The translations under genes were made by a program, and so were the position numbers. Positions 12,577 through 27,660 of a stretch of 64,000 nucleotides of DNA are shown piece by piece. This DNA comes from Acidobacteriaceae bacterium TAA 166. Its GTDB lineage: Bacteria > Acidobacteriota > Terriglobia > Terriglobales > Acidobacteriaceae. The notes beneath the pieces were generated by a model. That model was not told the origin of the DNA, made no database searches, and worked only from the letters and a program-made list of their open reading frames with translations. The first letter of the stretch is position 1. Each line of letters starts with the position of its first letter. The stretch is taken from positions 310,001 through 374,000 of the forward strand of contig ATWD01000001.1 in assembly GCA_000421065.1 (NCBI GenBank). Reading direction: 5' to 3'.

Positions 12577-12929
12577 CAGGCTGCCTGTCTGTTTCCTTCA
12601 CAAGCGTTAATCGTAACGACGATTCATCAATGGACTGTTAACAGCACGGTTGAGAGAAGGTCGCAGAGAAGCTATACACTCCTCCTCCCCCCTAAGTCCC
12701 TAGTTTTTGACCCGGCGAGAGGTGCCTCCTCTATTCAAATCTTAATAGTGCTGCAAGTAACGGGAAACTCGCTTTGAGGGCCTAAATATGCCCATTTTTC
12801 ATGGGTGTATACACCCCAATGCACTTGAATCGCATTCTGCGGACTGCCTACATTTGGCTCAGCGCTCTCGAATTGCGACCCGAAATCATTTCGAGGACTC
12901 TTCGCGTCGACTGCCTAGATAAATATTTT

Positions 12930-15900
12930 ATGGAGAATGCCGTGACCTCGTATGTCAGATCCAACATCGACAAGATCAGTCGGCCAACCACTGCTTTAAT
13001 CTTGTTCGTACTCCTTCTCTGTTCCTTAGCGCCCCACGCACAATCCCAAATCACAACCGCCGATGTCCTGGGCACGGTTACAGACAACACGGGAGCTGTG
13101 ATTGCAAACGCGACCATTACGTTGCAAAATGAGGACACGCGCGAGACGCGAACAGCGCTATCTGGCAATTCCGGGCAGTACACGTTCAATCTCGTCCCGA
13201 GTGGTCATTATTTCATCACGGTAGAAGCCCCTGGCTTCGGCAAGTTTCTTGTACCGCATCTGTCGATTGCGGCTGGCGACCGGGCACGTGTGGATGCTTC
13301 TCTGGAAACCGGAAGTGTGCAAAATACCGTGGAAGTCATCTCCGCCTCAAGCGGACTTCAGACCGACTCCTCTACTCTCGGAATCGCCGTAACCGAACGC
13401 TCCGTCCAGGACCTTCCGCTCAATGGAAGAAACTTTATTCAGCTCGCTCAACTTGCGCCTGGGGCGAACGAAGGACCGGCCGGAGGACTCTATAGCGGCC
13501 TGCGACCGGATGATCGCAGGCAGTCCGCGTCCATCTCCGCCAATGGGCAATCGGACACATTGAACTCGCAACTGATTGATGGAACCGACAACAATGAACG
13601 CGTGATCGGCACCATCGGAGTTCGTCCTTCGATCGATTCGATCGCTGAGTTTCGCGTGCAGACGAATCTATATACCGCCGAGGTCGGCCGCACTGCAGGA
13701 GCGGTCGTCAATATTGTGACGAAATCCGGTTCAAACCAGCTTCACGGCACGGTGTATGAATTCTTTCGGAACGATGTTCTGAACGCGAAAAACTTCTTTG
13801 CCGCGACCGGACCAAAACCAGCTTACAAACAGAACCAGTTTGGTGGCAGCGTTGGAGGTCCTATCCGCAAAGACAAGACCTTCTTCTTCGGAGATTATGA
13901 GGGGTATCGGATTGCTCAAGGCGTCACGTCTGTACTCCCTGTCCCTACGGCTTATGAACAAGAGCATGTTGGTGATTTCACCGATATTGGCGGAGCGAGA
14001 GTTGCTGCTGCAGATATCAATCCAATTGCGGCGAAATACTTTGCGTTGTATCCGCTCCCCAATCTGAGCGGCTCTGGTAATAACTACAACAGCACTTCCA
14101 GCAAGACCCAGAATAGTGATACCTTCGATGGCCGCATCGACCATAATTTCAGCAATCGCGATATGTTTTTCGCCAGATTTACCTTGAACAATGTTAATTC
14201 AGATCTTGCCGGCCCTCTACCGATAGTGAATGGCATCGCTCCGGGAGGAAACATCAGCAATTTTGATGGCACCTCGCGGCAACGGGCACAGAATGCACAA
14301 CTCAACTATCTCCACATCTTCAATCCGAATCTCTTGCTCGAGTTGAAGACTGCATATACCCGGATCAACAACGCATCATTTCCTCTCAACTACGGCCATA
14401 ATTTTGCCGACAGCTTCGGTCTGCCGGGGTATAACCTGAGTCCATTCTCATCCGGGCTTGCGCCAATGTATATCATCGGCTATGCGACCTTGGGTGAAGC
14501 CAACGACCTTCCGCTGCAGGATCTCAACAATACCTTCCAACATAACGGGGCCGTGACCCTGACTCGTGGCTCGCACAATATTAAGGCTGGAGCAACGCTG
14601 ATCCGCAGGCAGGCCACCGAGGCCCAGAATGTTCGCGCAGGGCTGTTTGTCTTTGCTGGGTTCACCACCTCTCCGGGTGATGCAATGGCGAACTTTCTCA
14701 AAGGTGTCCCCTATCAGGTATCCCGAGTCACTCAGCTTCTTGCGCCTGGTTGGCGGACCTGGGAACCGAGTCTCTATGTGCAGGACGATTGGAGGGTGAC
14801 GAAGTCGCTCACGCTCAACCTCGGAATACGGTATGACCTCTTCACGCCGTTTAGTGAGTCGCACAATCGTATATCCAACTTCGACATTGCAACCGGGAAG
14901 ATTATCATCGCGGGTCAGTCCGCCAGCAACACTGCAGGAGTCAACACAGACTACAGCAACTTGGCACCGCGGGCAGGTTTCGCGGCATCGCTAGGGCGTG
15001 GTGCCGTCTTGCGCGGCGGCTTCGGTCTTACATTCTTTCCTGCCAACTATACGAGCGATTCATCCTTGCTGAATGCGCCCTACGTCTCGACCTACGGCCC
15101 GGTTACCTACGGAACTCCTCAATATCAGGGGCTCTCTGCTGGACTTCCAGCCGCGCTTACGCCACAGGACCCAACGAATCCGAGCGGAAGTTTGGTCGCA
15201 GTCGACCGTCACTTCAAGTCAAGCTATCTGGAGCAATACAACATCAACATACAGAAGCAGCTTGGCTCGAATGTCCTGACCGTGGGGTATGTGGGTTCGC
15301 TCGGCCGTAGGCTGAGTGAACGAATTGCCAATCTCGACGTTCCTCCACCCAGCACTGCCACCAATATTAATCTGCTGCGTCCATTCAACTCGCAGGTTCC
15401 AAATATTACGTCTATTGCTTACCTGACCACACATGGCAGTTCGAGCTACAACGCGCTCCAGATGAGCTTTGAGCGGCGGCTCCAGCGTGGATTGACAGTC
15501 AGCTCGAACTACACCTATGCGCGGGGAATTGACGATGTGCAGAATATCAGCAACACCAATGCAACCCCTTATGCTCTGCTGCCGAACGAAATCTCCACAT
15601 ACGACCGCGGAAATTCGGATCTGGATGTACGCCACCGCTTTGTCTTCACTGCGACCTACCAGCTGCCGTTTGGCGAATCGGCACGTGGCTTGAAGCGAAC
15701 TGTAATCCAGGGATGGCATGTCAACGCGATTGAGGTGTGGGGAACCGGGCTTCCATTCTCAGTCGCCAATAGCGTACCGCAGATCAACACCGGGGCGTCG
15801 GTCGACCGTCCCAATCGCATCGCTTCCGGTAAAGTCGCAAATCCGAGCATTACCAAGTGGTTCGACACGACAGCCTTTGTGCCTCAGGCAAAGGGGACAG

Positions 15901-16145
15901 CGGGGAACTCTGGACGCAACATCCTCTATGGACCTAACCAACGGCACTTCGATGCTTCTCTGTTCAAGGACTTTTCGGTAACCGAGAGGATGCGGCTTCA
16001 GTTCCGCGCCGAGGCGTTCAATCTCACGAATACGCCAAGCTTCGCAAGTCCCAATGGATCTCTCAACACTACGGGTGTCGCGACGATCACCTCTACGACC
16101 CTTGACCCGCGAGAGTTCCAGTTTGCGCTGAAGCTCATCTTCTAA
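12930..16145 (+). CDS. Oar-type TonB-dependent receptor (locus A)
   Basis: Large outer-membrane receptor. I prefer ATG at 12930 (residue 44 of the longest frame), because it is followed by a convincing Sec signal (TTALILFVLLLCSLAPHAQS). A carboxypeptidase-regulatory-like domain comes next (about 28-115 of the mature frame, LGTVTDNTGAVIANATITL). Then a plug domain (VQDLPLNGRNFIQLAQLAPG, AEVGRTAGAVVNIVTKSGSN) and a long beta-barrel ending in FQFALKLIF with the C-terminal aromatic. Length is typical of the group. It precedes a GDPD-like enzyme and a carboxylesterase on the same strand, and is divergent from the regulator at 11257. The ligand is unknown. Confidence 0.9.
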   Translation: MENAVTSYVRSNIDKISRPTTALILFVLLLCSLAPHAQSQITTADVLGTVTDNTGAVIANATITLQNEDTRETRTALSGNSGQYTFNLVPSGHYFITVEAPGFGKFLVPHLSIAAGDRARVDASLETGSVQNTVEVISASSGLQTDSSTLGIAVTERSVQDLPLNGRNFIQLAQLAPGANEGPAGGLYSGLRPDDRRQSASISANGQSDTLNSQLIDGTDNNERVIGTIGVRPSIDSIAEFRVQTNLYTAEVGRTAGAVVNIVTKSGSNQLHGTVYEFFRNDVLNAKNFFAATGPKPAYKQNQFGGSVGGPIRKDKTFFFGDYEGYRIAQGVTSVLPVPTAYEQEHVGDFTDIGGARVAAADINPIAAKYFALYPLPNLSGSGNNYNSTSSKTQNSDTFDGRIDHNFSNRDMFFARFTLNNVNSDLAGPLPIVNGIAPGGNISNFDGTSRQRAQNAQLNYLHIFNPNLLLELKTAYTRINNASFPLNYGHNFADSFGLPGYNLSPFSSGLAPMYIIGYATLGEANDLPLQDLNNTFQHNGAVTLTRGSHNIKAGATLIRRQATEAQNVRAGLFVFAGFTTSPGDAMANFLKGVPYQVSRVTQLLAPGWRTWEPSLYVQDDWRVTKSLTLNLGIRYDLFTPFSESHNRISNFDIATGKIIIAGQSASNTAGVNTDYSNLAPRAGFAASLGRGAVLRGGFGLTFFPANYTSDSSLLNAPYVSTYGPVTYGTPQYQGLSAGLPAALTPQDPTNPSGSLVAVDRHFKSSYLEQYNINIQKQLGSNVLTVGYVGSLGRRLSERIANLDVPPPSTATNINLLRPFNSQVPNITSIAYLTTHGSSSYNALQMSFERRLQRGLTVSSNYTYARGIDDVQNISNTNATPYALLPNEISTYDRGNSDLDVRHRFVFTATYQLPFGESARGLKRTVIQGWHVNAIEVWGTGLPFSVANSVPQINTGASVDRPNRIASGKVANPSITKWFDTTAFVPQAKGTAGNSGRNILYGPNQRHFDASLFKDFSVTERMRLQFRAEAFNLTNTPSFASPNGSLNTTGVATITSTTLDPREFQFALKLIF

Positions 16146-16233: not shown

Positions 16234-16278
16234 ATCTTTCTACCTCTGTTTTGAATGCAAATGCCCGAGGATAAGGAA

Positions 16279-17478
16279 ATGCACAAGTACTTCATCTGCG
16301 GTCTATTTCTTGTCGGCACGATGTTCAGGAGCGTTGCTGCGCAGGAACAGCAATCGCAAATGCCTGACAGAACCACCTCAACCGAGCTCGTGGTGCAGAT
16401 TGTGAAGGCAGCGCAACGGCATGCTAAGGTTCATGGCGACAAATATCCGCCAGCCTTCTCACCCTCCGAGCAGCTTCTGCTCGGGAATGGTGCTGCCATC
16501 GACTTAAAAGTGTTTCGCCAGGCTACCGGAGCGCCGATCATCGTATGGACCGTCGACGACGTGGCACACATGAGACTTTTCATCCGGGAACGGGTCGAGG
16601 GAATCATCTCAGACCGCCCGGACATACTTCGCCAGGTAGTCCATGGGGAGGCGGAACTGCCAAGAACGAATCGAAAGGATGACCCCGGATACTTCACGCA
16701 TTTTGACGTTGAAGCCCATGCAGGAGGAAAAGGTCTTCGTCCGGAGAATACCCTTCCAGCATATGAGACGGCCCTTGATAGCTTGGCAACCACCATCGAG
16801 ACCGATACGGGTTTGACCAAAGATGGAATTTCTGTTGTTAGTCATGATTCTTCGCTAAGCCCCGAGTACTGTAGGCGAAACGATGGAAAACCTTACGCAG
16901 ACGCTGATCGCGTCTTGCTCAAAGACATCACGTTGGCTGAAGCACAAAAGACATTTACCTGCGATAAGATCAGCACGGCCGGCACGCAAAAGAACGACCC
17001 GATATTGAATCCAGTAGCAATGGCCTTTTCGAAGACACTTGCGTTGGCAAGTCCATATGCTCCGGTAAGCGTGGAGCAGCTATATAGATTTGTCGCATTC
17101 TATGTGGAGTACTACAAAACAGGTCCAGGAAAGAACCTGCCACAAGCTGGGCAAAGATGGAGGAATGCTCTGAGTGTCCGCTTCAATCTGGAGATAAAGA
17201 TCAATCTAAGACCATCGCGCCAACAGGAGACCTTTGGTCCAGAGCGGTTCGTGGATGCACTTTGCGGCACCATCATGCGTGCGCACATGGACTCCCGTTC
17301 GGATGTTCAAAGTTTTAACTTCCAATCGCTGCTTTTAGTGCAGGAGAAGTTTCCGGCGATCAGGACCGTGTACTTGTTCGGGACTGTCGATCCGCGATTG
17401 CGCTATCTCTTACCTCCTGCCTTACTGGAAGAAGTCTCCGAAAGAAACACCGGGCCGTTGCCGCCTGATGACAAGTAG
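16279..17478 (+). CDS. GDPD-like phosphodiesterase with apparently permuted barrel (copy A)
   Basis: Secreted enzyme of the glycerophosphodiester phosphodiesterase superfamily. ATG at 16279 follows GAGGATAAGGA and starts the Sec signal (KYFICGLFLVGTMF). Numbering from the longer frame at 16255, the normally C-terminal motif APIIVWTVDDVAHM...EGIISDRPDIL comes first (93-125). The normally N-terminal catalytic motifs follow: EAHAGGKGLRPENTLPAY (153-170), IETDTG (181-186) and VVSHD (194-198). The protein ends with SFNFQSLLLVQEKFPAIRTV, the strand that normally precedes the missing C-terminal pair. The canonical HR is HA here. It follows the TonB receptor, and a paralogue is at 23133-24302. Confidence 0.8.
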   Translation: MHKYFICGLFLVGTMFRSVAAQEQQSQMPDRTTSTELVVQIVKAAQRHAKVHGDKYPPAFSPSEQLLLGNGAAIDLKVFRQATGAPIIVWTVDDVAHMRLFIRERVEGIISDRPDILRQVVHGEAELPRTNRKDDPGYFTHFDVEAHAGGKGLRPENTLPAYETALDSLATTIETDTGLTKDGISVVSHDSSLSPEYCRRNDGKPYADADRVLLKDITLAEAQKTFTCDKISTAGTQKNDPILNPVAMAFSKTLALASPYAPVSVEQLYRFVAFYVEYYKTGPGKNLPQAGQRWRNALSVRFNLEIKINLRPSRQQETFGPERFVDALCGTIMRAHMDSRSDVQSFNFQSLLLVQEKFPAIRTVYLFGTVDPRLRYLLPPALLEEVSERNTGPLPPDDK

Positions 17479-17546
17479 ATGCCGTTGTTCCATGGTCGAC
17501 GAAAATAACAGGCCAGCAATCTTAGCAAACGCCTTCATCTCGCAAA

Positions 17547-19139
17547 ATGGATATGCCCCCCATGCAATGCTTTCTCTTCCAAAGACACTTTTACATCGCG
17601 ATTGTAAGTACATACATACTCGCGATGTCGGCACATGCAAGCGATCTACTTCGAGTGTCCACAGACCGTGGCAAGGTGGAAGGTAAATTGGGTCCAGGCG
17701 GGGAAACAAGAGAATTTCTCGGCATTCCGTATGCAGCCCCACCTGTTGGTTCTCTGCGTTGGAAACGCCCACAACCTGTGGAGAAGTGGAGTCGGATGCG
17801 TCAGACCACCACTTTTGGCCCGCGCTGTGTGCAGCCGGCCATTCATGCTCCGGATATGGTCTTCCGTGACGAAGGGCAAAGCGAGGATTGCCTTACGCTG
17901 AATGTTTGGACACCTGCCAAGAACAAACGTGCCAAACTCCCGGTTATGGTTTGGATCTACGGAGGAGGATTTGCCTCAGGGGGCACCTCGGAACAGAGAC
18001 AAGATGGTGAGCGTCTCACTCGCAAAGGCGTCATAGTTGTTTCGCTCAACTACAGGCTTGGTATCTTCGGCTTCTTTGCAAGTCATGAACTTGAATCGGA
18101 ATCACCTCGCCATGCGGCAGGCGACTATGGGTTGATGGACCAGGTCGCTGCGCTTCGGTGGGTGCGCAGAAACATTGCAGCATTCGGTGGAGATCCTTCC
18201 AATGTAACGTTGTTCGGTCAGTCAGCAGGATCAATCTCCGTCAGTGCACAAATGGCATCACCTCTCGCTCAGGGCCTGTTCACGCGAGCGATCGGAGAGA
18301 GTGGAGGAGCCTTTCCTAATTTATCGTTCTATTTCCCGAGCTTGGCTGCGAGTGAACAAACGGATGAAAAGTTCGCTCAGGCTGCTTTCGGTAGCAGCAG
18401 GCTTGCTTCTCTTCGTGCCATTGCCGCCGAGGATTTGCAAAAAGCAGTGACATCTACATTTCATTTCTGGCCGAACATTGATGGGGACTTCTTTCCGGAA
18501 GATCCAGCAGCGATCTACGCTAAGGGAAAACAAGCACATGTGCCACTGCTGGCGGGATGGAATAGAGACGAGGGAACCTCACAAGTGTTGCGAGCGTCCG
18601 AAATGCCAACGGTAGAGAGATTGAAAGAGAACGCTCAGAAGCAGTTTGGCTCACGGGCTAGTGAGTTTCTTCGTGCATACTTGGCTTCGAGCGATACAGA
18701 GGCAGTGCGGGTTGCGGAAGATTTTGCGGGAGATCGCTTCATTGCTTATTCCACCTGGGTTTGGCTCGAATCACAGGTAAGAACTAGTGGCGCCCATGTC
18801 TTCCGGTATCGCTTCGACCTGGGATCGCCGGGTGATGCAAACCACCCAGCCTCGATCGGAGCATTTCATTCTGACGAGATCGAGTATGTGTTTGGAAATT
18901 TAGATTCGCGAAGAGGCGCTGCATGGCGGCAAGAAGACTATAAGGTATCTGAGCTCATGCAGCAGTACTGGACTAATTTTGCCAAAACCGGAGATCCTAA
19001 CGGGCCCGACCTACCACGTTGGCCGATCTACGATGCAACGGGCGACTGGCAAGTCATGCACTTGAACCCCGATGCCCACTCTGAACCTGATGAGCATCGT
19101 GACCGATATATATTTCTGGATGAAATAAGCCATCCATGA
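17547..19139 (+). CDS. Type-B carboxylesterase (para-nitrobenzyl esterase-like), exported
   Basis: A 530-residue serine carboxylesterase of the alpha/beta-hydrolase fold. It has an N-terminal hydrophobic signal (AIVSTYILAMSAHA), then the family start GKVEGKL...FLGIPYAAPPVGSLRW, and the first disulphide-type signature SEDCLTLNVWTP. The oxyanion region is VWIYGGGFASGG, the nucleophile elbow VTLFGQSAGSISV, and the His motif AFHSDEIEYVFGN. These are the expected elements for hydrolysis of carboxylic esters. It begins 68 bases after the GDPD gene on the same strand, so it is likely the third gene of locus A. The exact start is uncertain; ATG at 17562 is also possible. Confidence 0.88.
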   Translation: MDMPPMQCFLFQRHFYIAIVSTYILAMSAHASDLLRVSTDRGKVEGKLGPGGETREFLGIPYAAPPVGSLRWKRPQPVEKWSRMRQTTTFGPRCVQPAIHAPDMVFRDEGQSEDCLTLNVWTPAKNKRAKLPVMVWIYGGGFASGGTSEQRQDGERLTRKGVIVVSLNYRLGIFGFFASHELESESPRHAAGDYGLMDQVAALRWVRRNIAAFGGDPSNVTLFGQSAGSISVSAQMASPLAQGLFTRAIGESGGAFPNLSFYFPSLAASEQTDEKFAQAAFGSSRLASLRAIAAEDLQKAVTSTFHFWPNIDGDFFPEDPAAIYAKGKQAHVPLLAGWNRDEGTSQVLRASEMPTVERLKENAQKQFGSRASEFLRAYLASSDTEAVRVAEDFAGDRFIAYSTWVWLESQVRTSGAHVFRYRFDLGSPGDANHPASIGAFHSDEIEYVFGNLDSRRGAAWRQEDYKVSELMQQYWTNFAKTGDPNGPDLPRWPIYDATGDWQVMHLNPDAHSEPDEHRDRYIFLDEISHP

Positions 19140-19891
19140 ATGCCAATATTGAGGCGGGAAATGATGAAGATGGATAGGGAGACATCCTTCTTCGTTTCTT
19201 AGGCGTGATCCATGCCGTTTGCAGCCAGCTGTGCATTTTACGGTCGCACGCCCTCCTCTGCCAGGGTCGGGAAACGCTGACGAACGAACGTGCAGACCGT
19301 GAGTTCTTTACTTGGCTCAAAACAGGTATCTCGTTTGTCGAGAATCGCGTTTCTACCAGGGGGACATCTCAGCCGGTCGGCGAGTTCGATAAACTCATGG
19401 AGACTCAAGCTGTGCGATCTGGATTTCAGGTACAGATAAATCTCCATGGTTGGCCAAGCCGCCCATTCGAAGGTCGACGCGAAACGTCTTGCGCGGACCT
19501 ACCTCGAGATGCTCGTAGGAGATGATTTCGAAGCCGGCTTCTTTCTCGACAGTAGGCAGACGATGTCTGCCAGGACCGTCTGAACGGCTACGGAGCGATT
19601 GCCGCGTAAGCGATTTGAGACGAGGCGCTGTCCAAACGTAGCCTATATTCCTGGCCGCGTCTATGCCTGGCCGCATCGCGGATGAAAGACAAGCGCTGGC
19701 CTGAAGCAGGCTATGCATGTACCGGATAGGTGCCGCGTGCTTCAGCGTTCTGCTTCTCGGCGTTATGACGATTGCCGACGAGGTGGATTCACAGTTGAGC
19801 CAGGCGATGGAAAGCTACATCGCGGAGTCCGTTCAGGACGCCTTACCCTCCTGAACGGTGGATCTGGTAGTAGCCGAGCCTGGACAAGATC
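19140..19891. other. Decayed intergenic stretch, no intact gene recognised
   Basis: Frames in this 750-base stretch are short and unconvincing. On the minus strand two overlapping frames (19718-19395 and 19447-19238) could be one interrupted gene, because EVGPRKTFRVDLRMGGLANHG in one is followed in the other frame by EIYLYLKSRSHSLSLHEFIE. I cannot assign a family. On the plus strand, 19717-19854 could encode a 45-residue peptide with a signal-like start (MYRIGAACFSVLLLGVMTIA), but it lacks support. Confidence 0.4.
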
Positions 19892-20122
19892 TTACGTGGC
19901 TTTGTGAGGGTGTAACGCAGCACGAACCTTTTCGACGTGGGTCCCATGACTACGGATAGCTTCGTGGAGTTAATCGCCAGTGACGTTGAACTCTTTGGAC
20001 CGGTAGGCGATGTCAGAGGCCATCTTGGGATTGATCTCTTTTGGGTCGTGAGGGCCTTTGAGGTGGTCTTCCCGGACGACATGAGGTTCGTAGACTTTAG
20101 GGGTATCGTGGTGTTCAGACAT
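19892..20122 (-). pseudogene. DUF3606-like small protein with internal stop
   Basis: A 76-residue frame starting at ATG 20122 behind a good Shine-Dalgarno (AAAGAGGAAACAAT). The sequence MSEHHDTPKVYEP leads into IAYRSKEFNVTGD, then a TAA at codon 51 (19972-19970), then LHEAIRSHGTHVEKVRAALH to a normal stop. The pattern of an acidic start, 'W/Y-(A/S)-K-x-F-x-V', 'L-x-x-A-I/V', 'H/G-x-x-V-x-x-x-L' matches the small DUF3606 proteins. One base change would restore the frame, so inactivation is recent or the stop is a sequence error. Confidence 0.55.
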
Positions 20123-20541
20123 ATTGTTTCCTCTTTTTAGGTTCTCTTGGATGGATGAGGAACGGCTGGGCGAAGATGTACACGATGGTGGCCAAGCCGT
20201 GGGATTGATCAGCCGGTTCGGTCATATAGAGGAACCCTGGCTAATGACGTAGCCATAGCGGAGTTGGACTGACTATGCCGCGGGGAATCGTTGATGTGTC
20301 GCTGTTTAACATCGCCTTCTCCTCCCGCTTCTTTTGCGAGCGTCCTCAGAAGGTAGCAACTCCAGCCTTTCATCTCACTCCGTTCCTTGCTCTCAAATCC
20401 CTTCTGCTTGGACGAAGCCCAACCTCGGATTCGAAAGCAAGATACGGAGTGCAGTTCCCCCTAGATCGGAATATCTTTCGAGATGCAGAGGCGAACGCCC
20501 TGCCGGTCTTCGCCAACATCGCCTGCATACGGAGAACACTT

Positions 20542-20740
20542 ATGTCGAAAGAACAAGAGAATAAAGCCATCGTAGGTCGTTGGTTCACCAGCTTCTGGGG
20601 ACCCACATGCGACCTCAGCATCGTTGACGCGCTCGCCGCACCGGACATGCTCTTGCAGTATTCGTTGCACGAGCCCGCCGCGGACACGCGGACATCAAGG
20701 CGTTCATGACTGATTTCCGCGCCGCCTTGCGTAGACCTTT
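20542..20740 (+). pseudogene. SnoaL/NTF2-like ester cyclase fragment, frameshifted
   Basis: Starts MSKEQENKAIVGRWFTSFW and continues DLSIVDALAAPDMLLQYSLH, which I recognise as the N-terminus of SnoaL-like polyketide cyclase/ester-cyclase proteins. Near 20672 (CCGCCGCGG) the frame shifts and continues as RRGHADIKAFMTDFRAALR, after which homology is lost. The usual ~140-residue protein is thus both shifted and truncated. It lies directly left of an IS terminal remnant, suggesting that rearrangement removed its 3' half. Confidence 0.6.
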
Positions 20741-20902
20741 GCAATTTATGCGGGTGCCGTTATCTGTTTCGGCGGTCTGATTTTCGCCGGAATCCGCATG
20801 ATGTCTGGGCGGTTTCATGTCACCAACCCAGTGACTAAGGTATCGAACGAACGCTACCTTCCTTCCGTCGGGTGACACTCTGGAATAGCAGTCTTGGTCG
20901 TC

Positions 20903-20990
20903 TGGATTGCCCGATGTTTTGTACCAGTGAGGAGTTAGTGTAGCGCATTGATTTGAAGGGCGGGAGGCTGCGGGCGAAGCCCGCGACCCA
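20903..20990 (-). mobile_element. Terminal remnant of the IS3-family element (orfB end)
   Basis: The inverted repeat TGGATTGCCCGATG then TTTTGTACCAGTGAGGAG and the following TTAGTGTAGCGCATTGAT match the orfB-side ends at 43405 and (reverse-complemented) 7201. The similarity fades after about 20960, but a hairpin (GCGGGC-GAA-GCCCGC) remains where the other copies have their stem-loop. Only the end is present; the transposase genes are gone. Confidence 0.75.
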
Positions 20991-21011
20991 GAGCAGCCCT
21001 GGCGGTCGTAT

Positions 21012-21212
21012 ATGGAGGCTTTCACGCCGGACAACTCGCTCATTGCCCGTTTGCACGCGAAGTTTCTCAAACCCCGAACCGAGGTGACTTCTGGCCCGAC
21101 GGGCGACTTCGAGTTACTCCCAGAGGACGTGAAACGGCGGTTCCGAGAAGCGATGGAGTTGATCGACGAGCAGGATCGCCAACGCGGAGGCAGGCCGGGG
21201 GAACGCTCCTGA
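21012..21212 (+). CDS. Small hypothetical protein
   Basis: A 66-residue frame beginning right after the IS remnant: a charged, helical C-terminus (DVKRRFREAMELIDEQDRQR) and no recognised family. Adjacency to the IS end means it could be the surviving tail of a longer gene. The next gene starts 121 bases downstream on the same strand, so co-transcription is possible. Confidence that it is a real gene is modest. Confidence 0.35.
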   Translation: MEAFTPDNSLIARLHAKFLKPRTEVTSGPTGDFELLPEDVKRRFREAMELIDEQDRQRGGRPGERS

Positions 21213-21333
21213 GTAGTTACCTTATTACCCTAATGGTAAACTCCTGAAGTAACTTGCCCTCAGATGGTCAGCTCTCGGGCTCCAAAGACGAGCTGATCCA
21301 GGCCGATTGTTGGCTTGGTCCAAAGGAGGCTCC

Positions 21334-22302
21334 ATGCCTCAGCAGCACCCATCCCGTGTTCCTACCCCGCTTGGTCCACCCTCAGACGTGAACATCGGGC
21401 CTCTGACGCGCTCGCTCATTGCCGGTGCGAAGTGGCAGAGCCACGACGCCTTTCCCGCGTGGCAGAGGTGGGCGGACGATGTTGAATCGATCCTGCAGTT
21501 CCTCCGCGACAATGGCCGCTTCGACCGCTTCCGCGAACTCATTCAAAAAACTCACACGACCCAGCACCGCGACGCCATGCTCGCGGAGGCGCGGGGCAGT
21601 TTCTACCTGGGCCGCCACGGCTTCAAGATCCTCGAATGGGAGCCGCTGGGAGAAGGGACGGCGCTCGGCGAAGCGCGCGCTCAGTTCGGTGCGTCTCCGG
21701 CGATCTTCGTCGAGGTGAAGCAACCGAGTTGGCAGGGAGAATATCTTCCTCTGACCGTCGGAGAGAAACAGCGCCTCTCGCCCGAAGACCTGGCCGCTAG
21801 ACTTGCGCGGATGAAGCAGCCGCGTTTTCTTCCGAATGTCTGTGAAGGCGGAGCCGTGGGTTCGCATCATTTCTCGATGAGCGTGGTGCGACGCAACGCA
21901 CTGCACAAACTCACCGCGACGCAGCCGAATCTGGTCATCGTGGTCGACGAGTGCAGGGTCACCCCCGTAGGGCTGCCTTCGCTGACGCACTATGTGGAGA
22001 GCGAGTTTCTGCATCCCGCTCACGATCCAAACGACCCTGACGACCGCTACAGCTATGAGCGGCTGGGAGGAGTTCTCTTCCTCAATACGGTTTCTTTCGG
22101 GGTCGAGGTGGAGTACAACGTTGAGTTCATTACGAACCCGAACGTAACCGCTGCCTGTGCTCTGCCGGAGGAGGTCATCTCCCTCTTCGCTGCGCTGACG
22201 GAGGACACGGATCGGCGGGAAGAATTGCGCTACCCAGAATCGAATGGCTTCTTCCGCGCGATCATGAATCGTGGCGGCTCAGACACGCGGGTGGCCTTCT
22301 AA
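21334..22302 (+). CDS. Unknown protein with PD-(D/E)XK-like nuclease signature
   Basis: A 322-residue protein, taking ATG at 21334 (MPQQHPSR), which follows AAAGGAGG. No family is recognised. Residues 82-130 read MLAEARGSFYLGRHGFKILE, then EWEPLGEG and PAIFVEVKQPSWQGEYLPL. A conserved-type Glu in a helix, a beta-hairpin and an E-V-K on a strand (127-129) resemble the catalytic core of PD-(D/E)XK nucleases. The central acidic residue is not certain. The C-terminal half (MSVVRRNALHKLTATQPNLVIVVDECR) looks globular. It is 4 bases from the next gene, so the two are probably translated together. Both lie between inverted IS remnants, consistent with a horizontally acquired pair. Confidence 0.6.
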   Translation: MPQQHPSRVPTPLGPPSDVNIGPLTRSLIAGAKWQSHDAFPAWQRWADDVESILQFLRDNGRFDRFRELIQKTHTTQHRDAMLAEARGSFYLGRHGFKILEWEPLGEGTALGEARAQFGASPAIFVEVKQPSWQGEYLPLTVGEKQRLSPEDLAARLARMKQPRFLPNVCEGGAVGSHHFSMSVVRRNALHKLTATQPNLVIVVDECRVTPVGLPSLTHYVESEFLHPAHDPNDPDDRYSYERLGGVLFLNTVSFGVEVEYNVEFITNPNVTAACALPEEVISLFAALTEDTDRREELRYPESNGFFRAIMNRGGSDTRVAF

Positions 22303-22306
22303 TCGC

Positions 22307-22750
22307 ATGACTCTTCGTCTTTCTGATGCGGAGTTGGGGGCAAGGCTAGACGCCCGAAGAACGCAGGCTTTTCTGGTGGCCTTGAACCCAGCGGAGGGCG
22401 CTGAGTACAGCCAGTGTCACGAAAACGCGGAAGCTTACGCGAGTCGGCATGTGGACTGCCAGGTTGTGCGTGGCTGGATTATCGAAGAGTTTGTCGGCTT
22501 CACATACTTCAATGCGCACAGCGTGGTACGCGACTCCTCCGGTCAACTCTTCGACCCGACTCCAATAAGGCAGCATTGCCTCTTCATTCTGCACGAAGGC
22601 GATGAAGACGATTTTGCCGAACAACGACACACTCGTCCGCGGATTCAGTATCCGGTTCTTGAACCGGACTGGAATGACTTGGGCGGCCCAATCGATGAAG
22701 ACCCGGAGTTCGATAACGATTTCGAGCTTCACCTGACTGGCTACGGTTGA
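22307..22750 (+). CDS. Unknown protein with CHxN...H...D motif
   Basis: A 147-residue protein from ATG 22307 (MTLRLSDAELGARLDARRTQ). Visible are QCHENAEAYASRHVDCQVVRG (Cys37-His38-x-Asn40), then a Trp-rich strand, NAHSVVRDSSGQLFDPTP (His71, Asp83), and an acidic tail (EDPEFDNDFELHL). Small proteins with C-H-x-N, a conserved His before 'V-R/W-D-x-x-G' and a final D-x-T-P occur in phages and plasmids; their function is unknown to me. The Cys-His-Asp order would fit a papain/transglutaminase-like fold, which is an inference. It follows the nuclease-like gene at once. Confidence 0.55.
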   Translation: MTLRLSDAELGARLDARRTQAFLVALNPAEGAEYSQCHENAEAYASRHVDCQVVRGWIIEEFVGFTYFNAHSVVRDSSGQLFDPTPIRQHCLFILHEGDEDDFAEQRHTRPRIQYPVLEPDWNDLGGPIDEDPEFDNDFELHLTGYG

Positions 22751-22835
22751 AAGAGCTGGAGCAGGAGAACTCGAAGCTGAAGCGGTTGGCGACCAACCTG
22801 AGCCTGGATAATCCGGTGTTGAAGGACATTGTCGC
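22747..22835 (+). mobile_element. Internal remnant of IS orfA
   Basis: Translated on the plus strand this reads LKELEQENSKLKRLATNLSL then DNPVLKDI, nearly the C-terminus of the OrfA encoded at 44357-44638 (LKELEQENGKLKRLVANLSL). It starts inside the last codons of the preceding gene and is opposite in orientation to the remnant at 20903. No IS end or orfB accompanies it. Confidence 0.75.
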
Positions 22836-23132
22836 GGCAGATGTATGGTCTGCTCCGCGTTTGCAAGCGCAGAGGTGCCTCTGACACATGGAGGTTTCCG
22901 TAAATGTATCTGGCCTCTCGCGAGTCAGCCATTCGTGGCGACCATGCCGTGATGAGATCCGCAGCTCACAAGAGCTTGACGGATCGTTCCTTCCAGCAGT
23001 CTTCCGGTGAATCGCAGGAACTCGCACTTTCCCAGTCCAAAGGGCAGAAGCTTGAACGAGGGTTCAAGACCGATTTAGCAATTCGGACAGGGAGCATCGA
23101 GGACCGAACACCATCCGTACAAGAAATGTCAT
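22836..23132. other. Non-coding stretch downstream of GDPD copy B
   Basis: No convincing gene. A plus-strand frame crosses it but is Ser/Gln/Arg-rich, lacks a recognisable start signal and is partly antisense to the GDPD gene. Confidence 0.4.
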
Positions 23133-24302
23133 TCACTGAGCCATCGCGGCCTTTTGTAGGGAAGTTGGCAGAAGATACAGCAATCTCGGATCGACAATAC
23201 CAAAAAGATACACGGTCCGAATCGCAGGAAACTGCTCTTGTACAAGTAGAAGCGATTGGAAGTTAAAACTTTCAATGTCCGTGCGTGCTTCCATGTGTGC
23301 CTTCATGATGGCTCCCCCCAAAGCCGAGGCAAATTTTTCGGGAGGAAATGCGTCCTTTTGATTGGCTGGCCGTAGATCAATCTTGATTTCGAGGTTGAAG
23401 CGTACCTTTTCCGCAGTCTGTATTCGTTGTTGGGCCTCAGGCTGGTTCTTGCCAGAACCACTCTGGTAGTAGTCACGATAAAACGATACGAAATCGTAAA
23501 GTTCAGCTACGCTCACCGGTGTGTAGGGTCCAGAAAGGCCAATCTTCTTCGCAAAAGCGACCGCCACGGGGCTTAATTCCAGATCATTTTTCTGGGTGCT
23601 GCCTGGTGTGATCTTGTCGCAGGTGAATGCCTTCTGCGCCTCGGCCATGGTCATGTCCTTGATAAGAACGCGGTCGGACTCAGTATAAGGAGTGCCATCG
23701 TTGCGTCGGCAGTACTCAGGACTTAGTGAGGCATCGTGACTCATGAGGGAGACCCCATCTAACGTCAGACCTGTATCGGATTCGATCGTGGTCGCCCCTG
23801 CATCGAGAGCCCCTTCGTAAGCGGGAAGAGTGTTTTCCGGTCTGAGTCCCTTTCCCCCAGCATGAGCCTCGATATCGAAGTTCTCGAAGTATTTCTTATC
23901 TTCAGGCCGGGACGAGCCGGTTGACACGGCCTCTTCACGAAGAACCTGATGCAATACGTCTGGCCGATCAGCGATGATCCCTTCGACTCGATGCTGGATA
24001 AGCCAATGCATATGGGCCACGTCATTAACTGTCCAAACGATTACGGGGGCCTCCGTACCAGAACGAAATGCTGCAATGTCGATTGCGGGGCTATCCCCAA
24101 GTAGCAACTGCTCCGACGGAGAAATTGCAGGAGGGTACTTGCCTCCATGGGCCATCGCATGATCATGAGCAGCCTTCATGATCTTTACGACCATCTCGGT
24201 TGAAGCTGCGGTATCAAGTTTAGAGGGAGCCGGGCCTTGAGCGATTCCCTGCCCGATTAAGCCAGTCCATAACAGCCCGCAGAGCGCATTTCTGATTCTC
24301 AT
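23133..24302 (-). CDS. GDPD-like phosphodiesterase with apparently permuted barrel (copy B)
   Basis: A 389-residue paralogue of the protein at 16279-17478, with the same unusual order. A Sec signal (LCGLLWTGLIGQGIAQ) comes first. Next are the GDPD C-terminal-type segment APVIVWTVNDVAHMHWLI...EGIIADRPDVL (85-118), then the N-terminal catalytic segments FDIEAHAGGKGLRPENTL (142-159), TIESDTG (172-178) and MSHD (187-190). The protein ends SFNFQSLLLVQEQFPAIRTV...YLFGIVDPRL. His, Glu-Asn, Glu/Asp and His-Asp metal or catalytic positions are kept; the Arg of the usual HR pair is Ala. It starts 43 bases after the TonB receptor of locus B, so the receptor-GDPD pairing occurs twice in this window. Confidence 0.82.
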   Translation of the reverse strand: MRIRNALCGLLWTGLIGQGIAQGPAPSKLDTAASTEMVVKIMKAAHDHAMAHGGKYPPAISPSEQLLLGDSPAIDIAAFRSGTEAPVIVWTVNDVAHMHWLIQHRVEGIIADRPDVLHQVLREEAVSTGSSRPEDKKYFENFDIEAHAGGKGLRPENTLPAYEGALDAGATTIESDTGLTLDGVSLMSHDASLSPEYCRRNDGTPYTESDRVLIKDMTMAEAQKAFTCDKITPGSTQKNDLELSPVAVAFAKKIGLSGPYTPVSVAELYDFVSFYRDYYQSGSGKNQPEAQQRIQTAEKVRFNLEIKIDLRPANQKDAFPPEKFASALGGAIMKAHMEARTDIESFNFQSLLLVQEQFPAIRTVYLFGIVDPRLLYLLPTSLQKAAMAQ

Positions 24303-24345: not shown

Positions 24346-27300
24346 TTAGTAGCTCAACTTCAGTCCAAGCTGTAGAACTCGCGGAGTATTCGTTGTTGAT
24401 ATGGTTCCGAATCCTGCATCACTGAAATTCGAATCCGGTCCCCCGAAGTTCGTCTTATTGAAGAGGTTGTATGCCTCGGCGCGGAACTGCAGCTTCAGGC
24501 TGTCAAGGGGCAACGAGAACGTCTTGTTGAGGGCGAGGTTGAGATTCGAGTAAGCATAGCCACGAACGATGCCACGTGATGCATTCCCAAATGGGCTTAG
24601 GAGATGACCTGCCTCATCCTTCGCTGGCGGCGCTGCGAATGCGGCCCGGTTCAGGTAGCTTGTCGGTGTCCCAGTGTGTGCCCGTATGTCGACTCCGGAG
24701 GTCCGGTTGGGGCGATAGGTATTTGCGCCGCGGAAATCGGAGCTGATCCCCGATACCTGGTTTGCGGTTCCGGGTGTATAGGTGACGGTGATCGGCTGGC
24801 CGCTGTTATTGCTGTAGATGCCGCTCAACTGCCAGCCGCCTACGACAGCATCCATGGCGGCCGGTATCGAGTTGAGGAGGCGCCCACCGCGGCCGATCGG
24901 CAGGTTATAGACCAGACTGGTTACGTTGTTGATCGGCGCGTCATAGTTGGACGGGCCATAGTCCTTGCCGATGTCGTAGAGATTTTGAGGTGTGGATGCG
25001 TTTCCGTTGTAGGTTTCAAGGGTTCCGGATGCATTGTCGAACGTCCTGGAATAGGTAAACGAGTTCAGAAGCGTTAGAGCCCGGCCCAGTCGCTGCTGAT
25101 ATCGGACCTGCAGAGCGTTGTAGTTGCTATAGGAGCCATTGAATGCATAGGTAATGTCCCCCCAGCTTGGAATTGGCCGGGCGAACTGTCCTGTCGAATC
25201 GACGCCGGCTGCCGGATTTCTCTGGTTATAGTTGCCGATCTCCATCATCTTCAGTCCATGATTTCCTACATAGGCAACGTCAAGCATTCCGTCTCTTCCA
25301 AGCTTCTGTTGTACGGAGAGGAAGTAACTCTCCACGTAGCCATCGCGGAAGTTCTTTGGGATGTAGCCGACATTCACCGTTATCGGATTGAAGTTGGCGG
25401 GGTCGTTGAAACCCTGCGGAAATCCTTGATCCAAGGTTCTGAAGTTCGCTTGCCCAGGAAGTTGTGTCTGCTGCGCAAAAAGCGTGTTCGGCGCGTTTAG
25501 CGCCAACAGGTTGCCTGATCCGGCCCGGTAGTAGTGAACATAGCTGATACCGAACCCACCGTGAATCACGGTTGAATCCGTAGCGCCGTACGCAAATCCG
25601 ATCCGGGGAGCGAAGTCGTTTTTGTCTGGGTTTACCAGGGCACGCTGGGCTACCCCGCCGGATTGTGCGTTGACCATCTTTCCCGTTGCAACCGAAGTTA
25701 CCGGATCGAAATTGGTCAGATTGTTGTCCTTGTCCCACAACGGAGAACCATATTCATACCGCAGTCCAAGGTTGAGTGTGAGGCGCTTATTGACCTTCCA
25801 GTCGTCCTGGACATAGGCGTTGTGCATCACCTGACGAATATGGGAGACCGTCAGATTTGTGAGTTCGAACTGATAAGGAGTGCCCAGCAAGAAATCAGCG
25901 AAGTAATTGCCGCTGAACCCACCGTAGAAGATATAGAGGCCATAGAGCGGGAACTCATCTTCGACCTGAGTTCGGATCTGCTCGTACTCGTAGCCGAATT
26001 TAAGGAAGTGCTTGCCCTTGGTCCATGAGTAGTTGATCTTCGGGTCGAAGACAAAGGGATACTGCCACTGTGGATCAGTCGCCAAACGGCCAATCTGGGA
26101 ATATCCATTAATAAAAATACTCGGCATACCCCCCGCAATTCGTGGATCGGTCGTGAGACCGGGGATTCCAAATGCCTCTTCTGCGCCGGGCTGACCGATC
26201 ACCACCGAAGCGTCGCCGCCCTTCGTGTAGGAGACACCGAGGCGAGCGTCGAGCAACTGCGTCGGAGTGATCTGCCGAGTTACACCAAGAGCAAGTTGCT
26301 GGTCGATGATCCGTATGTGACCGGCAGCTCCTCCATCGAGCGGTCCCGGCAGAGTTGGGCCTTGTAGCGCATTCTCTTTGCTCTGGCTCACACGGGCGAA
26401 GAGCGTCGTCTTATCGTTCGGCACATAGTCGAGCTTCAGGTCATACTTGTCGAGGTTGTCATTCAGTTGTTGAAGTTGGAGGTAGTTCAACCCTCCCAGA
26501 GAGACGTTCGGTGCGGGGAAGAAGGCCGAGATCTTTCGAGCTGCGGCCGACATGTCGTCCTCCGGAATCGGTGCAGGGCTGCCATCCGGATTCACGTATT
26601 TTTTGCCGGTGAGAGGATTTGTGATCACGGTTGAGAAGATGCCATGAATCTGATCCTGCGTGGGAATCGTAGAGTAGTGCGGCGTTGTGAACTTCTGCCG
26701 GAACCCCTCGTAATCGGCGAAGAAGAACAGTTTGTTCTTGATAATGGGTCCGCTGAATGTTCCGCCAAATTGATTCCGCCGGATGCTTGGATTGCCTCCA
26801 GAAAAGTAGCCGATGGCATTGAACGCAGGGTTCCGAATGAACTCATACAGGTCGAAATGGAACCTATTCGAACCACTGGCGAAAGCGACGTTGACCGTTG
26901 CACCGGGAGCGCGTCCGTATTCCGCACTCTCGTTGTTGGTAACTACCTGAAACTGGGCCACGGCGTCAGGAGAAGGTTGAATAATCTGGTTGGAAAACCC
27001 CTGGTTCGAGGTGCCATAAGCATTATTGTCCAGACCGTCGAGCAGGTAGTTATTGAAGGTGCTCCGGAGTCCGTCCACGTTGAAGGCGCCTTCGCGGGCG
27101 AGGTTTCCATTGCTGATCCCCGCTTGAGACTGCATTGTTCCCGTTGTCAGCAAGACCAACTGCGAGTATTGCCTGCTCACCAATGGCAATGCACGGATCT
27201 CCTCACGGTTGATGATTTGTCCGCGCTGACTGGACTCCGTCTCGAGCGCCAAATCGCCTGAGCCATCGACATTGACCGTCTCGGCGGTATCTCCTAGTTT

Positions 27301-27660
27301 CATCTGCGCGTCGACCGCCAAACTCTCTGCGACGGTCAGAACGATGTTACGCATCTCAAAGGTTGCAAATCCTGCCCGCTCGATACGTAAGGTGTAGTGT
27401 CCGATCGGCAAGGAGCCGAAGACGAAGAGACCTTGCGAGTTCGTCTTCGCCTGGCGTTCAAGTGACGTTTCATCGCTTCTCACGGTTGCCATAGCGTCGG
27501 CGACGATGGCCTTTTGCGGGTCGACAACTGTACCACTGAGGGTAGCCGTTTCAAACTGTGCGAGCGATGGTCTTACACAGAGAACGAGGAGCAAGAGAAA
27601 GACGATAAGCTGAGCATTCTGTCTGAAAATGAGCGCACATTTCCTTCTAGTGTTGAGCAT
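24346..27660 (-). CDS. Oar-type TonB-dependent receptor (locus B)
   Basis: A 1104-residue outer-membrane receptor. It has a Sec signal (LIVFLLLLVLCVRPSLAQ), a carboxypeptidase-regulatory-like domain (about 35-125, LSGTVVDPQKAIVADAMATV), a plug (IRALPLVSRQYSQLVLLTTG, AEYGRAPGATVNVAFASGSN) and a barrel ending VLQLGLKLSY. The N-terminal extension is typical of acidobacterial Oar-like receptors, which import or bind unknown ligands. It lies 53 bases downstream of the sigma/zinc-finger fusion and 43 bases upstream of GDPD copy B, all on the minus strand. The arrangement suggests receptor synthesis is controlled by the fusion protein. Confidence 0.9.
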   Translation of the reverse strand: MLNTRRKCALIFRQNAQLIVFLLLLVLCVRPSLAQFETATLSGTVVDPQKAIVADAMATVRSDETSLERQAKTNSQGLFVFGSLPIGHYTLRIERAGFATFEMRNIVLTVAESLAVDAQMKLGDTAETVNVDGSGDLALETESSQRGQIINREEIRALPLVSRQYSQLVLLTTGTMQSQAGISNGNLAREGAFNVDGLRSTFNNYLLDGLDNNAYGTSNQGFSNQIIQPSPDAVAQFQVVTNNESAEYGRAPGATVNVAFASGSNRFHFDLYEFIRNPAFNAIGYFSGGNPSIRRNQFGGTFSGPIIKNKLFFFADYEGFRQKFTTPHYSTIPTQDQIHGIFSTVITNPLTGKKYVNPDGSPAPIPEDDMSAAARKISAFFPAPNVSLGGLNYLQLQQLNDNLDKYDLKLDYVPNDKTTLFARVSQSKENALQGPTLPGPLDGGAAGHIRIIDQQLALGVTRQITPTQLLDARLGVSYTKGGDASVVIGQPGAEEAFGIPGLTTDPRIAGGMPSIFINGYSQIGRLATDPQWQYPFVFDPKINYSWTKGKHFLKFGYEYEQIRTQVEDEFPLYGLYIFYGGFSGNYFADFLLGTPYQFELTNLTVSHIRQVMHNAYVQDDWKVNKRLTLNLGLRYEYGSPLWDKDNNLTNFDPVTSVATGKMVNAQSGGVAQRALVNPDKNDFAPRIGFAYGATDSTVIHGGFGISYVHYYRAGSGNLLALNAPNTLFAQQTQLPGQANFRTLDQGFPQGFNDPANFNPITVNVGYIPKNFRDGYVESYFLSVQQKLGRDGMLDVAYVGNHGLKMMEIGNYNQRNPAAGVDSTGQFARPIPSWGDITYAFNGSYSNYNALQVRYQQRLGRALTLLNSFTYSRTFDNASGTLETYNGNASTPQNLYDIGKDYGPSNYDAPINNVTSLVYNLPIGRGGRLLNSIPAAMDAVVGGWQLSGIYSNNSGQPITVTYTPGTANQVSGISSDFRGANTYRPNRTSGVDIRAHTGTPTSYLNRAAFAAPPAKDEAGHLLSPFGNASRGIVRGYAYSNLNLALNKTFSLPLDSLKLQFRAEAYNLFNKTNFGGPDSNFSDAGFGTISTTNTPRVLQLGLKLSY

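Follow-up and report, generated by a model that had tools for sequence, protein, structure and literature searches.

The 64,000-nucleotide stretch analyzed here (the window; positions 310,001 to 374,000 of contig ATWD01000001.1 from Acidobacteriaceae bacterium TAA 166, assembly GCA_000421065.1) contains two genes for proteins related to glycerophosphodiester phosphodiesterases (GDPDs), in which the segment that usually ends the GDPD chain precedes the segment that usually begins it. The genes and their parts, with b1 to b8 denoting the canonical barrel strands, are as follows.

16279..17478, plus strand: copy 1, predicted secreted, circularly permuted GDPD-like protein, 399 residues (open reading frame, Pfam and profile)
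16369..16662, plus strand: copy 1 N-terminal block with VWTVDD and GIISDRPD, approximately residues 31-128 (profile tail match)
16705..17424, plus strand: copy 1 C-terminal block, approximately residues 143-382, counterpart of canonical strands 1-5
16717-16722, plus strand: copy 1 HA, replacing HR
23133..24302, minus strand: copy 2, predicted secreted, circularly permuted GDPD-like protein, 389 residues
23919..24212, minus strand: copy 2 N-terminal block, approximately residues 31-128, with a helix, b6, b7 (VIVWTVND) and b8 (GIIADRPD)
23136..23876, minus strand: copy 2 C-terminal block with b1 to b5, residues 143-389 (Pfam and model)
23859-23864, minus strand: copy 2 HA

The N-terminal block of copy 1, whose limits are taken over from the copy 2 model, is the counterpart of the canonical C-terminal barrel units. 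Both open reading frames had been located correctly in the initial annotation; for the second the coordinates 23133-24302 were right but the strand was left unstated, and it is the minus strand, the plus-strand reading being full of stops. Copy 1 has an alternative in-frame ATG at 16255, which would give a 407-residue protein. A hydrophobic, signal-like stretch, recognized by eye, opens both copies, which are 64% identical over 377 aligned residues. Nonsynonymous (pN) and synonymous (pS) divergence between the two genes are 0.24 and 0.84, and the pN/pS ratio of 0.28, with synonymous sites saturated, fits purifying selection on the pair. Gene decay was ruled out by the open frames and this same ratio, saturation included. 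The genome encodes a third permuted GDPD (L003), which has HR. Sequencing or frame error was also ruled out, as the two window copies, the third genome copy and 96 other permuted proteins are concordant.

The rotated order is visible in the profile matches. The window proteins score 82.3 and 74.6 bits against the Pfam GDPD family (PF03009; curated cut-off 23.6), in each case in two pieces. Positions 1-175 of the 244-position profile match residues 147-375 of copy 1, and positions 1-173 match residues 147-373 of copy 2, while the profile tail matches upstream of this start match, with positions 213-243 in copy 2 (E 3.2e-5) and 162-243 in copy 1 (E 2.4e-4). Comparison of copy 2 with the solved GDPD 3ch0 by phmmer gave the same swapped order, residues 141-211, 289-367 and 71-117 aligning to 8-78, 116-197 and 226-269 of 3ch0, respectively, although the second and third pieces are weak alone (i-Evalues 0.099 and 0.93). 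These matches bear out the motif order read from the sequence in the initial annotation. The canonical b1-to-b8 unit order was found in neither window protein by Pfam, phmmer, the structural model or the rotation scan described below.

A profile scan of the genome contig collection with the family alignment recovered 283 relatives, the best 80 of which were used for locus counts; an earlier scan of this collection that used just copy 2 as the query recovered none. A WTVN-type motif lies ahead of the HRGG motif in 77 of these 80 loci, so that the order claimed for the window pair characterizes a family, and the three exceptions comprise two truncated frames (L091 and L094) and one diverged motif (L096). 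Against a canonical profile built from 14 canonical GDPDs of this and other genomes, exchanging the two halves raised the mean score of 79 permuted proteins from 76 to 111 bits, with a gain in 78 (the set being 77 of the 80 loci plus the window pair; truncated L091, L094 and L117 were left out). After domain trimming, re-cutting the chain shortly ahead of the catalytic histidine lifted copy 1 from 74.5 bits and copy 2 from 71.9 bits to 102.4 bits, as one match covering profile positions 6-263. When nine proteins, trimmed to begin 115 residues before the catalytic histidine, were rotated in five-residue steps, the best re-cut fell 5-20 residues ahead of that histidine in every one. The N-terminal parts of the 79 proteins alone score 17.7-52.4 bits (median 40.5) against the canonical profile. 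Chance resemblance of this block was ruled out, the best of 790 shuffled N-terminal parts reaching 5.8 bits.

The AlphaFold2 model of copy 2 (predicted local distance difference test 91; predicted template modeling score 0.89) is a TIM barrel with eight strands in the order b6-b7-b8-b1-b2-b3-b4-b5, and its comparison with solved structures likewise indicates a complete barrel. A short linker, some 15 residues long, connects the helix after b8 to b1, and the monomer model closes the barrel. The N-terminal block extends beyond the WTVN unit noted in the initial annotation, including in the model a helix, then b6, b7 and b8 with their helices (residues ~31-128). The C terminus, by contrast, does not end at the SFNFQS strand as had been thought; one further strand (residues 362-367) and helices follow it in the model. 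Of the two outcomes that would have spoken against a permutation, an N-terminal segment outside the barrel is not seen, the model predicting that this block belongs to it, and none of the 80 related loci has a duplicate of the WTVN unit at its C-terminal end. Simple duplication was ruled out, none of these loci repeating the WTVN-type motif where a canonical GDPD would have it; L076 alone has an additional later WTVN hit, which at 59 residues past the histidine is too near and is a chance hit. Circular permutation is thus supported by motif order, rotation scan, model, structure comparison, the 77 of 80 loci and a canonical-order relative, L172 (see below).

A published list of GDPD motifs gives HRG, E, ExD, D and H (PMC3482391). 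Both window copies contain H147, H189, E174, D176, E305 and K307. Among 98 distinct permuted proteins, the window pair included, both histidines, the glutamate of ExD, and the glutamate and lysine of ExK are invariant, and the aspartate of ExD is kept in 97; the pattern used for this table misses at least one permuted protein, L070, which is permuted by motif order. The His-Arg pair is kept in 96 of the 98, the two exceptions being the window copies. In canonical GDPDs the arginine after the first catalytic histidine binds phosphate. The HA in place of HR noted in both copies is a real change, but the altered chemistry that had been read from it is not established, the histidines, ExD and ExK being intact. 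Because HR is kept in the other 96 permuted proteins, altered chemistry is a sequence-based prediction for the window pair alone.

Two architectures occur in the family. In Acidobacteriaceae the permuted GDPD stands alone; elsewhere, as profiles and a model of a fused form indicate, a phytase-like propeller of family PF13449 hosts the permuted barrel as an insert. The fused form spans at least five phyla among the best 80 loci, whereas the standalone form is almost confined to Acidobacteriota. In L095:5347-7779 and 29 other loci among L084-L125 the barrel is inserted at about position 110-118 of the PF13449 profile, and examples come from Aquimarina, Tenacibaculum, Solirubrobacter, Citreicoccus and others. 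In some fused Bacteroidota members (L101 and L113) there is a further match, to a secretion-system C-terminal sorting domain. Neither window protein matches PF13449 at E values up to 1, and the genome encodes one uninterrupted PF13449 protein elsewhere. In the family of the source genome, 20 of 200 genomes have a match to copy 2 at E 1e-70 or better; across the phylum, 27 of 396 sampled genomes match at E 1e-30, all within that family. In other samples, matches were found in one of 296 genomes of the phylum of Aquimarina latercula (the centre genome only) and two of 199 of its family, one of 299 for the phylum of a Methylococcaceae metagenome-assembled genome (again the centre genome only), and three of 296 for the Solirubrobacter phylum, these being the centre genome, one fused protein and L172, which is not permuted. 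Permuted GDPDs outside Acidobacteriaceae are thus rare in these genome samples, and a plasmid search gave no match.

A careful tree was built from 76 rows, 69 of them permuted; 8 of the 14 canonical rows were dropped for their long branches and L172 was added. This and a quicker tree left out 14 of the 80 loci, namely eleven further Aquimarina rows together with the truncated L091, L094 and L117. In the careful tree the 69 permuted rows form one clade (bootstrap 96, Shimodaira-Hasegawa-like approximate likelihood-ratio test 96). It splits into two sister groups, one of fused rows (92/90) and one of standalone rows that includes the own-genome copies (96/78). In the standalone group the window pair (100/100) branches as sister to all the other rows (100/98), and the third own copy is placed among Edaphobacter-type rows rather than with the window pair. 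The quick tree, which has long outgroup branches, supports the fused group at 56. The window proteins thus have both marks of the family: they belong to the permuted clade, and their b6-b7-b8 block precedes the HxGG block. L172, from genome G1221 of the Solirubrobacter phylum, is a related GDPD that shares Cys-Arg and Cys-Asp stretches with the permuted family but has the canonical order and a long end branch (2.09). Aligned with nine permuted proteins it gives two swapped blocks, one of 238-272 residues (30-38% identity) and one of 32-74 residues (35-54%). A single permutation event is the simplest reading, and it most likely took place in a member of this GDPD subfamily that still had the canonical order.

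Each window gene lies directly downstream of, and on the same strand as, a receptor gene of family PF25183. The neighboring genes are as follows.

12801..16145, plus strand: outer-membrane receptor, PF25183 with a carboxypeptidase-regulatory-like domain, 133 bases upstream of the copy 1 start
17547..19139, plus strand: protein of the carboxylesterase family (PF00135), following copy 1, any link to the enzyme being putative
24346..27660, minus strand: outer-membrane receptor, PF25183 with TonB plug and barrel matches, 43 bases upstream of the copy 2 start

Between the enzyme genes, window positions 19140-23100 contain short overlapping frames on both strands, the first long gene beginning no earlier than 21307. 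Upstream of the copy 2 receptor, a 949-residue frame (27714-30563, minus strand) has a start that reads sigma-factor-like. The third permuted GDPD gene has a receptor directly downstream of it. The 6.1-Mb genome contains 65 PF25183 receptor genes (66 rows, two of which are one gene), three of which adjoin permuted GDPD genes; a receptor beside all three copies is more than chance would lead one to expect, with the caveat that copies 1 and 2 are closely related. Among standalone loci elsewhere, 13 of 48 are accompanied by a similar receptor gene in the same orientation no more than 1.1 kb away (downstream in 12, upstream in 1), and none of 32 fused or broken loci is, the two window receptors being the sole queries, so that receptors of these types alone were sought. 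Secreted GDPDs of soil Pseudomonas cleave glycerophosphocholine outside the cell (PMC5438359), and the cyanobacterial genes induced by phosphate limitation include one for a GDPD that carries a phytase domain (PMC9846622, PMC3610870). By analogy with these systems, a likely role for the permuted enzymes would be extracellular phosphodiester scavenging, perhaps with the neighboring TonB-type receptors.

Taken together, we consider it probable that the family consists of secreted GDPD-superfamily phosphodiesterases with a naturally permuted TIM barrel that arose by a single permutation, acting in the manner of GlpQ and, in the window pair, with an HA-changed site. In the rearrangement the chain would have been opened after strand 5 and the old C terminus (b8 and its helix) joined by the short linker to the old N terminus (b1), giving the predicted order helix-b6-b7-b8-b1-b2-b3-b4-b5, with the barrel closed within one chain. 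Catalysis would be GlpQ-like, using two histidines and a metal held by ExD and ExK, and the substrates may be glycerophosphodiesters or similar diesters, cleaved outside the cytoplasm, and the neighboring receptor would import substrate or product. The change from arginine to alanine in the window pair has probably altered the phosphate site or the substrate while purifying selection would have been retained. The standalone form of Acidobacteriaceae probably derives from loss of the propeller.

Several observations weigh against this explanation. The untrimmed window copies showed no real gain on re-ordering (74.1 to 74.1 and 71.5 to 71.8 bits), probably because the signal peptide sat in the join. 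Several solved GDPDs align to the model starting at its residues 54-107 rather than at about 122, sequential alignments blurring the two-block split. The arginine is lost in the very pair under study, 35 of the 48 standalone loci lack a receptor of this kind inside the 1.1-kb range (some loci being cut by contig ends), and the bootstrap of the careful tree had not settled. Finally, we know of no enzyme activity or experimental structure for any permuted member.

Other readings of the fold fare less well. The N-terminal block might be the remnant of an upstream GDPD copy, left outside the fold by tandem duplication and deletion and followed by a truncated GDPD. Tandem duplication with loss of both ends is a common route to a permutation, and the history may include such a stage, although no duplication intermediate was found among the 80 related loci. 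The block is, however, kept with its strand-helix pattern in 77 of these loci and in several phyla, and the C-terminal block alone lacks strands 6-8, which in the model are supplied by the N-terminal block to close the barrel; we regard a remnant as highly improbable. Somewhat less remote, yet still quite unlikely, is a segment-swapped dimer in which the N-terminal block completes the barrel of the partner chain. The models are of single chains and compatible with swapping, but the monomer is predicted with high confidence to close across its ~15-residue linker, and fused forms tie both ends of the barrel to one propeller.

The function of the window pair and the order of the architectures leave more room. 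That the HA proteins are no longer enzymes and instead bind phosphodiesters and feed them to the neighboring receptors would suit the loss of an arginine present in all 96 other permuted proteins, as well as receptor genes lying 43-133 bases from both copies. Both histidines, ExD and ExK are nevertheless intact, for which a pure binder would have no need, and we give this alternative a minor share of the probability. A standalone permuted enzyme that was later inserted into the propeller is a more serious contender, though still the less probable order. Neither of the sister groups, fused (92/90) and standalone (96/78), is nested in the other, which suits a standalone origin; against it stand the distribution over phyla and the simple reason for the permutation that insertion would offer. 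Because the fused form spans more phyla, we tentatively favor it as the earlier one.

A bolder extension of the permuted-barrel explanation is offered tentatively, as something we would not yet bet on. A single ancient permutation may have made the barrel insertable, and the propeller may cap the mouth of the phosphodiesterase and pass product between the two active sites; Acidobacteriaceae would then have freed the barrel, and the window pair would have exchanged HR for HA to suit a new diester together with its partner receptor. Capping is suggested because the new ends sit in a strand-to-helix connection, and in TIM barrels these connections lie on the active-site face.

Comparison with known systems places these features in context. 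Relative to canonical GDPDs (PF03009; GlpQ/UgpQ type), of which 3ch0 from Cytophaga hutchinsonii is the best solved match, strands 6-8 precede strand 1, HA replaces HR in the window copies, and the copy 2 model has an extra helical stretch between b2 and b3. The solved multidomain beta-1,3(4)-glucanase (PDB 7ww4 and 7wwc) also matches the GDPD-like blocks of copy 2, in canonical order (residues 87-130 to 201-244 by sequence; 140-368 to 7-183 by structure). The PF13449 fused proteins share their permuted barrel, and the tree clade, with the window proteins, but in them the barrel is flanked by PF13449 halves that the window proteins lack. The cyanobacterial GDPD-phytase, compared here by its description, combines a GDPD and a phytase-type domain in one protein, as the fused forms do, and its two GlpQ domains may be either genuinely separate or the halves of a single permuted domain (PMC9846622, PMC3610870). 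A TIM-barrel permutation is known from proline dehydrogenase (PutA) and methylenetetrahydrofolate reductase (PMC3779223); that pair belongs to another superfamily, and one strand has moved (1-8 versus 8,1-7), compared with three in the GDPDs. Literature searches in one open-licence PMC collection brought up no permuted GDPD in titles or abstract openings, subscription journals lying outside that scope. New here are the permuted family, its occurrence as a propeller insert, and its canonical-order relative.

The rotated order shows why annotation by profiles recognizes these proteins as two-piece GDPDs. As the canonical, permuted-in-propeller and permuted-free forms all exist in living bacteria, the link between permutation and domain insertion becomes testable. 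The family adds a probably secreted group of enzymes that may matter for organic phosphorus use by soil Acidobacteriota.
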